Below, piece after piece: positions 180 through 4,642 of a DNA stretch of 7,557 bases. The notes beneath the pieces were generated by a model. That model did no database searches and was not told the DNA's origin. It saw only the letters and a list, made by a program, of their open reading frames with translations. A program made the position numbers and the translations under genes. Each line of letters opens with the position of its first letter. The first letter of the stretch is position 1. Origin of the DNA: an uncultured Coriobacteriaceae bacterium (GTDB taxonomy: Bacteria > Actinomycetota > Coriobacteriia > Coriobacteriales > Eggerthellaceae); contig USJN01000069.1 in assembly GCA_900554945.1 (NCBI GenBank), positions 1-7,557 on the forward strand, read 5' to 3'.

Positions 180-327
180 GTGCGATTCTTCCCGCAATGT
201 TGCGTTTTTTCGGACCGTATCGGCATGCATCGAAAGTAATCATTGCAAACTGCCTGATCATCGTCTCGCGCTTTTCCGTGTCGATGAGAACGCCCCGTCA
301 AACGCAACATTCCTGTGATAATCGCAC
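180..327. repeat. REPIN-like inverted-repeat element, copy 1 (downstream of the nuclease-like gene)
   Basis: Two arms face each other: 180-207 on the plus strand and 300-327 on the minus strand, matching at 22 of 28 positions. Within each arm a 22-nt core (183-204 and 303-324) ends in AATGTTGCG, and the left arm carries the small palindrome CGCAA-TG-TTGCG. The core-to-core span is 142 bp, identical to the second copy at 1502-1643. The interiors of the two copies are mostly dissimilar. I see no transposase and no obvious target-site duplication. It could be a MITE, a REPIN-type palindrome pair, or a large transcribed hairpin acting as a terminator for the gene ending at 355. The repeat itself is certain; its nature is not. 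Confidence 0.75.
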
Positions 328-354
328 ATCGAGGCCGCACCTACGGCGGCCGGC

Positions 355-1344
355 CTAGTCGTAGCCCACCGGAAGCCCGAGCTGCCGCCGGAGCCGCAGC
401 TTGCGAGCATGGTAGTCCGACACGCGCACTTGCACGCGCTTTCCCAGGAGCCGACGTATCGTGTCGGCTATCGCATCGGTTGCAGCCAGGCTGTCCAGCT
501 CGTTGTTCGTGACGCCTACGACCGTCCAGCCCATCGCCATCAACGCGTTCGTCCTTCTAGAATCCCTGATACGGCTTTCCTCCCCTTCGTGCATCTCCCT
601 GCTTTGGTACTCCACGTCGAGTTTCGCATCCGGCCAGCAAAGGTCGCAACGAAAACTCGATCTGCCGGAAGTCGTGCGGGCTCCTGCGATTGCCTTCACC
701 TCGTAATTCATCCTCGGGATGCCCAAGCCGTACCCGCCGTACGATGTCGGCAAGCCCAACACGAGCGCCTGCTTCGTCTCCCTCGGAGAAGCCGAACCAT
801 CCGCCAGGTACGGCAGGACGCGCGCCACGATCCGAGCGCCCGCGATGGAAGGGTTGAGCGAAACGAAGCTGCGTAGAGAACGCATCGTCATCAAAGGAGG
901 CACCTGATACGCAGGAGCAGTCGACGTTCGCCGAGTGCGATAGGTTCCGCAAAGCTCGTAAGCAAGTTCAAGCAGATCGATCTTGTTTTTCGCTGACGGA
1001 GCCGCCTGAACGCAGGCAAACGGCGCACTGCATACGCCAACTCCGTCCGACAGCCGGAGCAAGGGCTTCCCACGCATCTGCCGTGTGCACACGTGCGACA
1101 CGCGACGCGAAGTGGAGCGGCATCTTGAAGCCGCTCCCAGGAGAATATGGACGGGACGCTCGATCGATAACCCAGGGCGATCGTTCTCAATGCGCTTGAC
1201 GACCTCTTCGAGCTCCCGCGCACTCGGCGCACGAGCGGGAAGCCGCCGCGCCGTGTCGCCAGACCCTGCAAGCTCCCGCGCGTCGATCGCCCTCAACACC
1301 TGAAAAGCCGTTTGATGGGAGAAGCAAACCTGCATAGGTTCCAT
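355..1344 (-). CDS. Protein with C-terminal DUF559/Vsr-like (PD-(D/E)XK) domain, AbiEi-antitoxin-like layout
   Basis: A 329-residue protein of unknown function. The ATG at 1344 is chosen because GAGGAGG lies about 6 nt upstream; the frame stays open to 1629, but that extension runs into a repeat and lacks a good ribosome site. Visible parts: an N-terminal segment FSHQTAFQVLRA (8-19), a strand-like VHILLG (65-70), a helix ELAYELCGTYR (126-136), a linker SASPRETKQALVLGLP near 184-199 followed by GGYGL, then a nuclease-like C-terminus with CDLCWPD (233-239), DVEYQ (243-247), H252, RDSRR (260-264) and GWTVVGVTNNEL (272-283). The C-terminal order matches DUF559/Vsr-type folds (Asp, then Glu-X-Lys/Gln, then a conserved Arg and Trp). 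The overall layout recalls actinobacterial AbiEi-like proteins fused to such domains, and I recall similar paralogs in Eggerthellaceae. No partner toxin is adjacent. GC bias is weaker than in the pyr genes, consistent with acquisition. REPIN-like elements flank both sides. Confidence 0.75.
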   Translation of the reverse strand: MEPMQVCFSHQTAFQVLRAIDARELAGSGDTARRLPARAPSARELEEVVKRIENDRPGLSIERPVHILLGAASRCRSTSRRVSHVCTRQMRGKPLLRLSDGVGVCSAPFACVQAAPSAKNKIDLLELAYELCGTYRTRRTSTAPAYQVPPLMTMRSLRSFVSLNPSIAGARIVARVLPYLADGSASPRETKQALVLGLPTSYGGYGLGIPRMNYEVKAIAGARTTSGRSSFRCDLCWPDAKLDVEYQSREMHEGEESRIRDSRRTNALMAMGWTVVGVTNNELDSLAATDAIADTIRRLLGKRVQVRVSDYHARKLRLRRQLGLPVGYD

Positions 1345-1495
1345 TGGAGCCTCCTCGTCTGCCCTGGGCTGCGAGGATCTTGCAGACGTGGTACTAGGAA
1401 GCGAGGGCCCGGCTTCCTCCATGGGCTGCTTCAAAAAAGAAGAGCGCCTGCACTGGCTCGATAAGGAGATGATTTTATCACGCAGTGCCCGCCCG

Positions 1496-1649
1496 GATGC
1501 CCGATATTTCCCGTAATGTTGCGAAAGAACGCGCATCAATCGGACATTCTCCAGCAGTTGCGTTTGCAACCAGGGAAAACGCGCAAAAGCACTCAGGATC
1601 GCCCTTCTTCTACCCCCGCAACGCAACATTGCAGGAAGAATCGGGCATC
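1496..1649. repeat. REPIN-like inverted-repeat element, copy 2 (upstream of the nuclease-like gene)
   Basis: Arms 1496-1523 (plus) and 1622-1649 (minus) match at 24 of 28 positions, starting with the exact 10-mer GATGCCCGAT and ending with AATGTTGCG. The 22-nt cores are 1502-1523 and 1622-1643, giving the same 142-bp span as copy 1. The right core differs from the left core of copy 1 (183-204) at only one position. Near the middle is a short inverted repeat GTTGC-GTTT-GCAAC at about 1557-1570. The element lies upstream of the nuclease-like gene, and an over-long reading of that gene would translate most of it. As with copy 1, the repeat is certain and its mobility is not shown. Confidence 0.78.
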
Positions 1650-1745
1650 TGGAACCGCAGCGGGCGACCTGCGTCGCCTAGTCGGCTCATCGGAGCGTTT
1701 CTTACGTCCCGTATGGCCATCGGGCGCACCGGGCATCGCGCAGAA

Positions 1746-1807: not shown

Positions 1808-3100
1808 CTACTCGACGATGGCGCCGTCCTCCATGGTGGCGTAGCCGCCCACGTAGACGTCGGTGGCGCGACCGGTCAGCTCGGCGCCGAGGAAGCCCGA
1901 GTTCACGGCCTTGGACTGGAAGTCCGCGGCGTCCACCGTCCAGGCGGCCTCAGGGTCGATGACCGTGAGGTCGGCCGCAGCGCCCGGCTCGAGCGCCACG
2001 CGCTCGACGCGCAGGATCTTGCGGGGACGCACGGCCATGAGCTCGACGGCGCGCTCCCAGCTGATGACGCCGGGCGCAACCAGGTTCGTGATGACCAGCG
2101 AAAGCGCCGTCTCCAGGCCGATCATGCCGAAGGGCGCCAGCTCGAACTCGGCGTTCTTCTCGAAGTCGTTGTGCGGCGCGTGGTCGGTGACGATGGCGTC
2201 CACCGTGCCGTCCTTCACGCCCTCCACCAGCGCGGCGGCGTCCTCGGCCGTGCGCAGCGGCGGGTTCACCTTGAGGAAGGTGTTGTAGTCGTCGCCGATG
2301 GCGTCCTCGGTGAGGAACAGGTGGTGCGGCGTGACCTCGCAGGTGACCGGCAGGCCCTCGGCCTTGGCGGCGCGCACCAGGTCCAGGCCGCGCGCCGTGG
2401 TGAGGTGCTGGATGTGCAGCGGGCAGCCGGTGAGGCGGCAGATGGCGATGTCGCGGGCGATCTGGATCTCCTCGCCTTCGGCCGGCCAGCCCAGCATGCC
2501 CAGGCGCGTCGACACGACGCCCTCGTTCACCTGGCCGGCGCCGACGAGGTCCTCGTCCTGGCAGTGGCTCATCACCACGCGGTCGAACTGCGCGGCGTAG
2601 TCCATGACGCGGCGCATCATGCCCGCGCCCTGCACCCCGCGGCCGTCGTCGGTGAAGGCGACGGCGCCGTGCGCCACCATGTCGCCCATCTCGGACAGCG
2701 TGTCGCCCTTGAGCCCCTGCGAGCAGGAGCCGGCCACGTGCACGCGGCACTTGCCCACGGCCGCCGCGCGAGCCTTCACGTACTCCACGCCCACGGCGTT
2801 GTCGATGACGGGCTTCGTGTTCGGCATGCAGCACACCGCCGTGAAGCCGCCGTGCGCCGCGGCGCGCGTGCCGGAGGCGATATCCTCCTTCAGCTCGTAG
2901 CCGGGCTCGCGCAGATGCACGTGGATGTCCACGAGGCCGGGAACGACGATCTTGCCGCCCAGGTCGCGCTCGACGCCCTTCTCCATCGTCAGGTTCTGGC
3001 CGATCTCGACGATATTCCCGTCGCGCACGAGGATGTCGGCCGTTTCGTTCAGACCGACCTGCGGGTCGATCACGTGGGCGTTCTTAAGCAGTAAGGCCAT
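1808..3100 (-). CDS. pyrC: Dihydroorotase
   Basis: A 430-residue cytoplasmic amidohydrolase that reversibly cyclises N-carbamoyl-L-aspartate to L-dihydroorotate, the third step of de novo UMP synthesis. The metal-binding DIHVHLREPG gives H60 and H62. FTDDGRG gives D151/D152, MSHCQDED H179, IQHLTTAR H232, and TDHAPH D306 and H307. An Asp at the position bridging the two metals, instead of a carboxylated Lys, is what class I (Bacillus/Aquifex-type) enzymes show, and the roughly 430-residue length also fits that class rather than the shorter E. coli type. The substrate-binding segment MPNTKPVID (92-100) is present. The start at 3100 has GGAGGG about 9 nt upstream and lies inside the end of pyrB, overlapping it by 17 bp, which suggests translational coupling. 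It is the last gene of the operon here. Confidence 0.96.
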   Translation of the reverse strand: MALLLKNAHVIDPQVGLNETADILVRDGNIVEIGQNLTMEKGVERDLGGKIVVPGLVDIHVHLREPGYELKEDIASGTRAAAHGGFTAVCCMPNTKPVIDNAVGVEYVKARAAAVGKCRVHVAGSCSQGLKGDTLSEMGDMVAHGAVAFTDDGRGVQGAGMMRRVMDYAAQFDRVVMSHCQDEDLVGAGQVNEGVVSTRLGMLGWPAEGEEIQIARDIAICRLTGCPLHIQHLTTARGLDLVRAAKAEGLPVTCEVTPHHLFLTEDAIGDDYNTFLKVNPPLRTAEDAAALVEGVKDGTVDAIVTDHAPHNDFEKNAEFELAPFGMIGLETALSLVITNLVAPGVISWERAVELMAVRPRKILRVERVALEPGAAADLTVIDPEAAWTVDAADFQSKAVNSGFLGAELTGRATDVYVGGYATMEDGAIVE

Positions 3101-4028
3101 CTTCGCTCCCTCCGAGCAGCAGGTACATTTCGGCCATGCGGGTCAGGATGCCGGCATAGACCTGATCGAGAATGACCGAGCGCTTCGGATGGTCGGCCAT
3201 GTAGCTATCCAGTTCGACGCCGCGGTTGATGGGGCCGGGATGGCAGATGAGGGCGTCGGGCTTCATGAGGTGCTCGCGGTCCTTCGTGAGGCCGTACAGC
3301 ATGTTGTACTCGCGCAGCGACGGATACGGCGCGCCCTCGAGGCGCTCGCGCTGGATGCGCAGCATGTAGACCACGTCGAGCTCGGGCAGCGCCGCGTCGA
3401 GGTCGCTCGTGATTTCGTCGGCCCCTAAGATTTCAGGAGCTGCCGGCATGAGCGTCGGCGGTGCGATGACGGTGACGTGGGCGCCCATGATCTTGAGCGC
3501 GGGGATGAGCGAGCCGCAGACGCGCGAATGGCCGATGTCGCCGACGATGCCGACGCGAAGGCCCTCGATGTGCCCGAAGCGCTCGCGAATGGTGTACAGG
3601 TCGAGCAGCGCCTGGGTTGGATGCTGATGCTTGCCGTCACCTGCGCAGATGACGGACACGCCGGAAACATCGGCGACCTTGCGCGGAGCTCCCGCGTGCT
3701 TGTCTCGCACGACGATGGCATCGATCTTGTACGAGCAGAGCGTCTGCACGGTGTCGCGCAGGCTCTCGCCCTTCACCGTGGAGGTGGAGGACCCGCCGAA
3801 GTTGAGCGTATCGCATGACAGGCGCTTCTCGGCAAGCTCGAACGACGAGCGCGTGCGGGTCGAAGGCTCGTTGAACATGTTCACGACCGTGAAACCCTTG
3901 AGCGTTGGCACCTTCTTGATGCGCCGCTCGTTCACTGCGCGGAAGCTTGCGGCGGTGTCGAGGATCCGCGTGATGTCTTCCGCGGAGTATTCCGAGATGT
4001 TGATGAGGTGCTTGTGGTTGAAGGCCAT
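3084..4028 (-). CDS. pyrB: Aspartate carbamoyltransferase catalytic subunit
   Basis: A 314-residue catalytic chain that joins carbamoyl phosphate and L-aspartate to give N-carbamoyl-L-aspartate, the committed step of pyrimidine synthesis. Carbamoyl-phosphate residues are visible: STRTR (56-60), the SSTSTVKGES loop (80-89) with K86 supplied to the neighbouring active site, and HPTQA (136-140). Aspartate-side residues include R168 in GHSRV, R224 and Q226 in MLRIQRER, and HPGPINRG (263-270). Length is normal for the family. No pyrI regulatory chain follows, so it is probably an unregulated homotrimer as in Bacillus, with control left to PyrR. The ATG at 4028 has an excellent AAGGAGG about 10 nt upstream, inside the end of pyrR. 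Only 5 nt separate the pyrR stop from this start, and the gene overlaps pyrC by 17 bp. Confidence 0.97.
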   Translation of the reverse strand: MAFNHKHLINISEYSAEDITRILDTAASFRAVNERRIKKVPTLKGFTVVNMFNEPSTRTRSSFELAEKRLSCDTLNFGGSSTSTVKGESLRDTVQTLCSYKIDAIVVRDKHAGAPRKVADVSGVSVICAGDGKHQHPTQALLDLYTIRERFGHIEGLRVGIVGDIGHSRVCGSLIPALKIMGAHVTVIAPPTLMPAAPEILGADEITSDLDAALPELDVVYMLRIQRERLEGAPYPSLREYNMLYGLTKDREHLMKPDALICHPGPINRGVELDSYMADHPKRSVILDQVYAGILTRMAEMYLLLGGSEDGLTA

Positions 4029-4033
4029 GGCTG

Positions 4034-4642
4034 CTATGCCTCCTTTTCCTGGGGTTGGTCAAAGCCAAGCGGGGCGGATCCCGCACGGTCCCCCGGCGCC
4101 ATTTCGAGGACCTCGACGGCGGAGACGCCATCGACCTCTTCCAGAAAGAGGCGAACGTTCTCGTGCGACGAGGAGGGGACGTTCTTGCCGACGAAATCGG
4201 CGCGGATGGGAAGCTCGCGATGCCCGCGGTCGACGAGGACCGCAAGTTGCACGCAGGAAGGGCGGCCGAAATCGCTTAGCGCGTCGAGCGCCGCGCGGAT
4301 GGTGCGACCGGTGAACAGGACATCGTCGACGAGTACGACGGTTAGCCCGTCGATGTCGAAGCGGATGTCAGTCGAGTGGACCTCAGGGGAAAGATGCGTC
4401 GCGAAATCGTCGCGATAGAAGCTGATGTCGAGTGCGCCGAGCGGAACGTCGGTGCCTTCGATCTGTTTGATCTTGCTCGCAAGACGATGAGCGAGCAAGT
4501 CGCCTCGGGTGAGGATTCCCACCAAGGCGATGTTCGAGGCGCCGTGGTTGGCCTCGAGAATCTGGTGCGCGATGCGCGTGAGCGATCGCTCAATTTCGTC
4601 TGCGTCCATACAGACGGATTTCACTGTTCTAGAATCTGTCAT
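4034..4642 (-). CDS. pyrR: Pyrimidine operon RNA-binding regulator / uracil phosphoribosyltransferase
   Basis: A 202-residue PyrR. Members of this family bind pyr leader RNA when UMP or UTP is high and keep some uracil phosphoribosyltransferase activity. The PRPP loop is clear: [13 protein letters not shown] at about 102-114. The family signature [20 protein letters not shown] lies near 137-156, and the N-terminal [10 protein letters not shown] and [12 protein letters not shown] blocks match Bacillus PyrR closely. The ATG at 4642 is preferred because GAGGG sits about 7 nt before it and the product then aligns with PyrR; an in-frame start at 4705 would add 21 unrelated residues read from the leader. 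The C-terminus runs about 20 residues past the Bacillus protein (181 aa), ending in an acidic, Pro/Gly-rich tail. It is the first gene of the pyr operon. Confidence 0.95.

Follow-up and report, generated by a model that had tools for sequence, protein, structure and literature searches.

A predicted Vsr-like nuclease family in Eggerthellaceae is associated with gene-specific pairs of inverted repeats that resemble REPIN/RAYT systems

Introduction

The best known population of repeats linked to a resident enzyme is that of the REPINs, built of repetitive extragenic palindromic (REP) sequences, with their REP-associated tyrosine transposases (RAYTs), and the reason why hosts retain it is open. 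As published, REPINs and REPtrons are described by a pair of REPs in inverted orientation, a tag of the GTAG type and a RAYT; the gene is bordered by its own repeats, different enzymes go with different repeats, and some genomes hold repeats without the enzyme (PMC8049555, PMC8266576). Here we describe a comparable arrangement around a different enzyme, in a stretch of 7,557 nucleotides (nt) from an uncultured Coriobacteriaceae bacterium assigned to the Eggerthellaceae; "the window" hereafter means this whole stretch. In it, the gene for a predicted Vsr-like PD-(D/E)XK protein lies between two elements, each consisting of two inverted arms, and related genes and elements occur across the bacterial family. 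We found that this nuclease-repeat system resembles REPIN/RAYT and is not a member of it, because the enzyme and the tag differ, though the organisation is alike.

As in REPIN/RAYT systems, the gene is bordered by repeats that it belongs with, the unit consists of two repeats in inverted orientation around a spacer of variable length and is dispersed in the genome mostly between genes, different enzymes go with different repeats, and some genomes retain repeats without the enzyme. Unlike in those systems, the enzyme is predicted to be of the Vsr-like PD-(D/E)XK type and not a Y1 HUH transposase, and the arms are bipartite and mostly non-palindromic, with no GTAG in the arm patterns read by eye, whereas a REP is a palindrome of 20-50 nt preceded by GTAG or a similar tag. 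Furthermore, the arms are spaced in helical phase, pointing to double-stranded DNA, the genomes hold 9-15 copies (seven genomes counted) rather than tens to thousands, and several paralogues occur per genome. For the single-copy, vertically inherited enzyme gene expected of a REPtron the picture is mixed, with a member beside pyrC common to six sequences but up to 14 family matches in a genome and different types at that locus in different genera. When ten genomes were searched for the Y1/RAYT transposase (PF01797), six gave no match, and five of these six carry at least 12 elements. A sequence-only reading of the window had suggested a possible REPIN/RAYT-type system with a different enzyme, and this is supported in part: the association of paired repeats with a PD-(D/E)XK-type gene is general (73/86 members) and gene-specific (22/24 genes, see below), and recognition, cutting or movement of the repeat by the enzyme would be a further proposal. 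In open-access PMC text (titles and beginnings of abstracts of the papers listed) we found no earlier report that links an enzyme of the PD-(D/E)XK type with inverted pairs dispersed in a genome.

Results

Inverted pairs flank most members of the nuclease family

The sequence-only reading had placed paired-inverted repeats at 180-327 and 1496-1649, and both are present, with coordinates correct to within a few bases (Table 1). A repeat search of the window gave an arm complementarity of 82% for 180-207/300-327 (28-nt arms) and of 84% for 1493-1523/1622-1652 (31-nt arms). The shared termini and span that had been claimed are also there, as the two elements have 24 nt in common (183-206 versus 1620-1643, 96%) and the starts of their 22-nt cores lie 120 nt apart in each. 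The window arm contains the short palindrome GCAATGTTGC, and on both sides of the gene the best inverted pair exceeded all 40 dinucleotide shuffles of the same flank. The open reading frame (ORF) between the elements extends upstream to 1629; we took the shorter form in Table 1 as the gene because several homologues are likewise 329 amino acids (aa) long.

We surveyed the flanks of the window gene and of 85 family members from 17 genomes over 900 nt per side, counting an inverted pair at a score of at least 14. The 85 members derive from 91 matches, of which four fragments were dropped (G005:C52, two at G011:C1:436 kb, and G015:C162) and two split pairs were merged (G013:C17 and G003:C3), and the window brings the total to 86. 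We found an inverted pair on at least one side of 73/86 members; the association is thus general. Pairs were present in 56/85 upstream-labelled and 41/86 downstream-labelled flanks, and the flank scored above all 40 of its own dinucleotide shuffles in 54/85 and 39/86 cases, respectively; the labels of L044-L052 disregard strand, which leaves the any-side count unchanged. A score of 14 was reached in 2 of 44 stretches of real DNA away from the gene, versus 27 of 38 sides near it at 19 loci. At one member (L044, G010:C4), nested and doubled inverted arms make up the flanking elements on both sides of the gene.

Table 1. Features of the nuclease-repeat locus, with positions counted from the first letter of the window
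Feature	Position	Strand	Remarks
Element downstream of the nuclease gene	180..327	.	Paired inverted; 22-nt arms 183-204 and 303-324
Left arm, downstream element	183..204	+	Outer CGATTCTT, 5-nt linker, inner AATGTTGCG
Right arm, downstream element	303..324	-	Outer half more diverged, inner AATGTTGCG unchanged
Gene for predicted Vsr-like PD-(D/E)XK protein	355..1344	-	329 aa; conserved E189, N213, D234, E245, H252
Element upstream of the nuclease gene, between gene and pyrC	1493..1652	.	Paired inverted; 22-nt arms
Left arm, upstream element	1502..1523	+	
Right arm, upstream element	1622..1643	-	
pyrC, dihydroorotase-type amidohydrolase	1808..3100	-	Locus-marking neighbour in the window, L001, L002, L007, L008 and L014

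Arms are private to each gene

Among the 24 genes with two-sided elements, the upstream and downstream arms agree in 22 (score of at least 15, the 95th percentile between different genes being 10), the two others (L003 and L166) having unlike arms on their two sides. Arms were shared by 67% of the pairs of genes with a protein score ratio above 0.7, by 15% at ratios of 0.55-0.7 and by under 1% below 0.55. Arms also differ between paralogues of the same genome (158 pairs, median score 6), and distant paralogues possess elements of their own, one such arm type being dispersed. The sequence-only reading had allowed that the gene merely hitch-hikes between two miniature inverted-repeat transposable elements (MITEs); with two unrelated MITEs, this alternative would leave the gene-specific arms unexplained.

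Arm spacing follows the helical repeat

Within a lineage the spacing hardly varies: the arms of the Paraeggerthella and window elements are spaced by 120-122 nt in 31 of 32 cases, with one at 132. Elsewhere the spacings fall mainly into classes at 114-116, 123-128, 134-136, 145-146, 156 and 165-166, or at 130-132, 139-141 and 151. Over five arm families, 26 of 114 pairs differ from the mode of their family by more than 2 nt, with offsets near multiples of 10.5 bp. The mean cosine of the phasing is 0.848 (p 2e-5; 0.884 on a smaller set of pairs, before eight further pairs were added), and 0.816 (p 2e-5) for the 18 distinct classes alone, which is the safer test as some of the pairs are orthologous. 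Twelve orthologous G017 pairs, inside-out pairs and unpaired matches were excluded. Such phasing points to two arms that would be bridged by a protein on one face of double-stranded DNA.

Elements are dispersed in genomes of the family

In five genomes a single arm type forms 9-14 pairs (the counts in this section include the gene-flanking elements), and in arm-rich genomes nearly every arm is paired with an inverted partner. The Adlercreutzia arm has 26 matches each in G012 and G017 and zero in the rest of 138 genomes (control 0). The arm shared by the window and Paraeggerthella has 25 matches in G001, 26 in G002, two in G062, one each in G012 and G048, and none in the other 133 genomes, while its reversed-pattern control gave 3 matches. 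Among 22 genomes, the Gordonibacter arm forms 14 pairs in G007, 9 in G003 and 12 in G061, with few matches in seven others, and the dispersed distant-paralogue arm forms 3 pairs in G001, 4 in G002 and 5 in G011, with lower numbers in six more. G007, G003 and G061 together have 33 elements, 30 of which do not overlap a GC3-type ORF. Some unlinked elements are alike over their whole length (74-86%, arms included), suggesting that whole elements have been copied.

The 12 elements of the Gordonibacter type in G061 (L233-L244) may be an orphan set, because the best-scoring nuclease of this genome, which shares 65% identity with the G007 one, has an arm of a different type. In G074 five pairs of another type persist although the family gene that lies between two of them is split over two frames (L251, G074:C1:2806500-2809200); both of these elements retain their arms. 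Three genomes have one inside-out pair each, with outward arms whose starts lie 83-85 nt apart (L210, G012:C44:60800-60908; G017:C110:1011-1119; G006:C139:1246-1351).

Elements keep their arms and length at orthologous sites

Nineteen orthologous element pairs, a subset of those that exist, could be matched (8 of the 12 normal G012 pairs, 6 between G001 and G002, and 5 between G007 and G003). In these, 3.3% of arm sites had changed, a rate lowered in part because the elements were picked by their arms, compared with 16.0% of interior and 14.2% of flank sites. Indel events were also much rarer inside elements, at 2.0 per kb, than in flanking sequence, at 20.2 per kb (p 2.5e-10), and this fixed length is not due to the search, because 80-200 nt between arm starts was allowed. 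Collectively, the elements look kept, more than merely decaying. Because spacing is preserved where elements are inherited vertically, the pairs may also be useful to the host, as proposed for REPINs. Nine G007 elements and four G003 elements lack a counterpart at the corresponding place in the set of elements identified in the other genome.

Changes in the two arms of an element were correlated in G001 (p 5e-4), G012 (3.5e-4) and G007 (6e-4), and weakly in G061 (0.026). We dropped arm covariation as a proof of hairpins, as it was significant in 4/5 genomes only and not in G002.

The protein is predicted to carry a Vsr-like nuclease domain

The window gene product is predicted to be a Vsr-like PD-(D/E)XK nuclease-domain protein. 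Its only Pfam matches are DUF559 and MTES_1575, and the DUF559 match (E 7.8e-4, 19.7 bits) misses the gathering score of 20.6 bits; among 115 family members, 81 match DUF559 at E ≤0.01. The structure model built from a 115-sequence alignment has a predicted local distance difference test (pLDDT) score of 93.7, and we assign its C-terminal part to the Vsr-like PD-(D/E)XK fold because a VIA-align comparison supports it. The fold core and catalytic residues of the Vsr/DUF559 type are present in the window protein, the active-site residues are nearly invariant across the family, and an N-terminal region (1-180), additional to the nuclease domain, is modelled confidently. With Foldseek this model had one viral match (E 8.8e-4); a sequence search for a solved relative found none, and PADLOC gave no family match. 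The DUF559/Vsr-like C-terminus that had been read from the sequence is thus upheld by an open 329-aa ORF, a near-threshold DUF559 match and a confident Vsr-like model. A first model, from 18 sequences, had been set aside, its C-terminal part being poor (many residues with pLDDT <50) and Foldseek finding nothing below E 0.8.

Family matches at E 1e-20 or better occur in 110/138 genomes of the bacterial family, many genomes having several, with up to 14 nuclease-family matches per genome. Named hosts include Gordonibacter, Paraeggerthella, Raoultibacter, Adlercreutzia, Enteroscipio, Arabiibacter and Eggerthella.

Discussion

We regard it as somewhat probable that the predicted Vsr-like protein binds its two elements at both arms, as a multimer and on one helix face, and has spread copies of them in relatives. 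This explanation builds on several findings: genes and elements occur together, arms are specific to a gene, copies are dispersed, the spacing is fixed and helically phased, some unlinked copies are similar over the whole element, and indels are far fewer between the arms than in the flanks. We infer that the nuclease is the factor that binds the arms and that it disperses the elements, the bridging of arms being suggested by the helical phasing and cutting by the conserved active-site residues. Under this hypothesis, each protein would bind its own arm pair as a multimer, the bound protein could cut at its own element, and repair of the breaks from other copies, or a transposition-like reaction, would spread the elements. 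A wider proposal, which we hold tentatively and rate just short of evenly balanced, is that the Vsr-like family in Eggerthellaceae is a second, independently evolved counterpart of REPIN/RAYT, in which each protein created and guards its own phased two-armed sites, with arm and protein specificity co-evolving in each paralogue. If true, a second system with an unrelated enzyme, whose protein family occurs in 110/138 genomes of one gut-bacterial family, would mean that the arrangement has evolved more than once, and its dozens of natural enzyme-repeat pairs, its rule of one helical turn and its measured spacing constraint would make the question of host retention testable. The system could furthermore supply a function for part of DUF559, which is of unknown function in Pfam.

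SfiI-type restriction enzymes bind two sites at once and, on short loops, prefer sites in helical phase. The two-site binding with helical phase that we propose would be analogous; unlike those of SfiI, the sites here are chromosomal, few and asymmetric. From Vsr, DUF559 and I-Bth0305I-type endonucleases the protein differs by its extra N-terminal region and its private repeat pairs, and the mismatch repair or intron homing of Vsr and I-Bth0305I-type endonucleases is not indicated here. It also differs from TnsA of Tn7, as none of the scanned neighbours in the window, which comprise pyrimidine genes and a transporter, gave a TnsB-like match, and the fold similarity is weak.

Besides the orthology within the phasing set and the choice of elements by their arms, several observations weigh against binding and spreading by the nuclease. 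An inverted pair at threshold is missing in 13/86 members; some of these are fragments or distant, but the close full-length members L005, L006 and L122 are among them, of which L005 has weaker arm matches on both sides. The overall rank correlation between arms and proteins is low (0.15, p 0.001), which may reflect the distance between most pairs. One G007 pair, at 132, lies 8 nt off its mode and fits the phasing poorly, correlated arm changes are lacking in G002 (p 0.40), and Foldseek with the 115-sequence model found no PDB match below E 0.001. That repeat number tracks the gene, a check proposed by the sequence-only reading, holds in part: in a search of 138 genomes, two arm types occurred mainly where the cognate gene is present, whereas G061, despite its 12 elements, has no G007-type gene among the matches listed, and in G062 (3,632,260 bases), the genome nearest to the window among those searched and ~99% identical through the cassette, the arm is confined to the gene. 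Other-type arms were also found in a few genomes where the cognate gene was not looked for. Finally, there was no clean empty site or target duplication at the three sites inspected: at L086 (G001 versus G002) and L212 (G007 versus G003) most of the intergenic stretch is different, and at L215 (G007 versus G003) ~190 nt are gone in a deletion-like manner, where loss is as likely as gain because a remnant of the right arm persists.

Helical phasing and constrained spacing would also fit DNA looping by a regulator, and many of the genes have an element on their upstream side. We nevertheless think it rather unlikely that the protein is an autoregulator on inverted operators, with the dispersed pairs as its regulon and the nuclease domain a leftover or acting elsewhere, since the active-site residues are nearly invariant and elements lie downstream of the gene as well. 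Moreover, the called genes next to the 33 elements of G007, G003 and G061 face all ways, with convergent pairs at L220, L225 and L244, and some unlinked copies share their interior, which is unexpected if operators arose singly.

That the elements are MITE-like passengers of another transposase, the nuclease gene merely lying between two of them or having moved with them as a composite unit, appears improbable to us. Their inverted termini, constant size and dispersed copies with similar interiors would suit such passengers, as would a presence that differs between species and a block common to the window and Paraeggerthella. The arms, however, are specific for each nuclease paralogue even inside one genome, two arm types are concentrated in cognate-gene genomes, length and arms are preserved at old sites, and the three inspected sites bear no target duplication.

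The arms could instead be recombination sites of invertible switches whose interior flips, as one orthologous site suggests (L092 versus L087, G001/G002), where the flanks are the same and the 143-nt element is inverted (identity 0.87 inverted, 0.67 direct). We consider this very improbable, since the interior was inverted in 1/20 orthologous comparisons (L216/L240, at 0.60 and 0.65, being undecided), left and right arms of one element often differ in sequence, and no recombinase is among the scanned ORFs of the window. Least credible of all are ordinary REPIN-type RNA or single-strand hairpins served in trans by a Y1 RAYT enzyme, for although folding was better than in shuffled sequence for all six elements examined (z -2.5 to -8.9) and arm changes are correlated in 4/5 genomes, the lack of PF01797 matches in 6/10 genomes stands against them, and hairpins have no need of a helically phased loop.

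The pyrC-downstream locus

A family member adjacent to pyrC is common to six sequences (the window, L001, L002, L007, L008 and L014), and at this locus the nuclease types and their arms differ between genera. The window nuclease gene is nearest to that of Paraeggerthella, and the window pyrC is nearer to Gordonibacter than to Paraeggerthella; these different nearest relatives suggest that cassettes may have been exchanged downstream of pyrC. Beyond the cassette, from about 3250 to 4617 and further, identity between the window and G062 drops from ~99% to ~80% near 3300, inside pyrB, and collinearity between the two stops at 4617, at either a recombination boundary or the junction of a chimeric contig.
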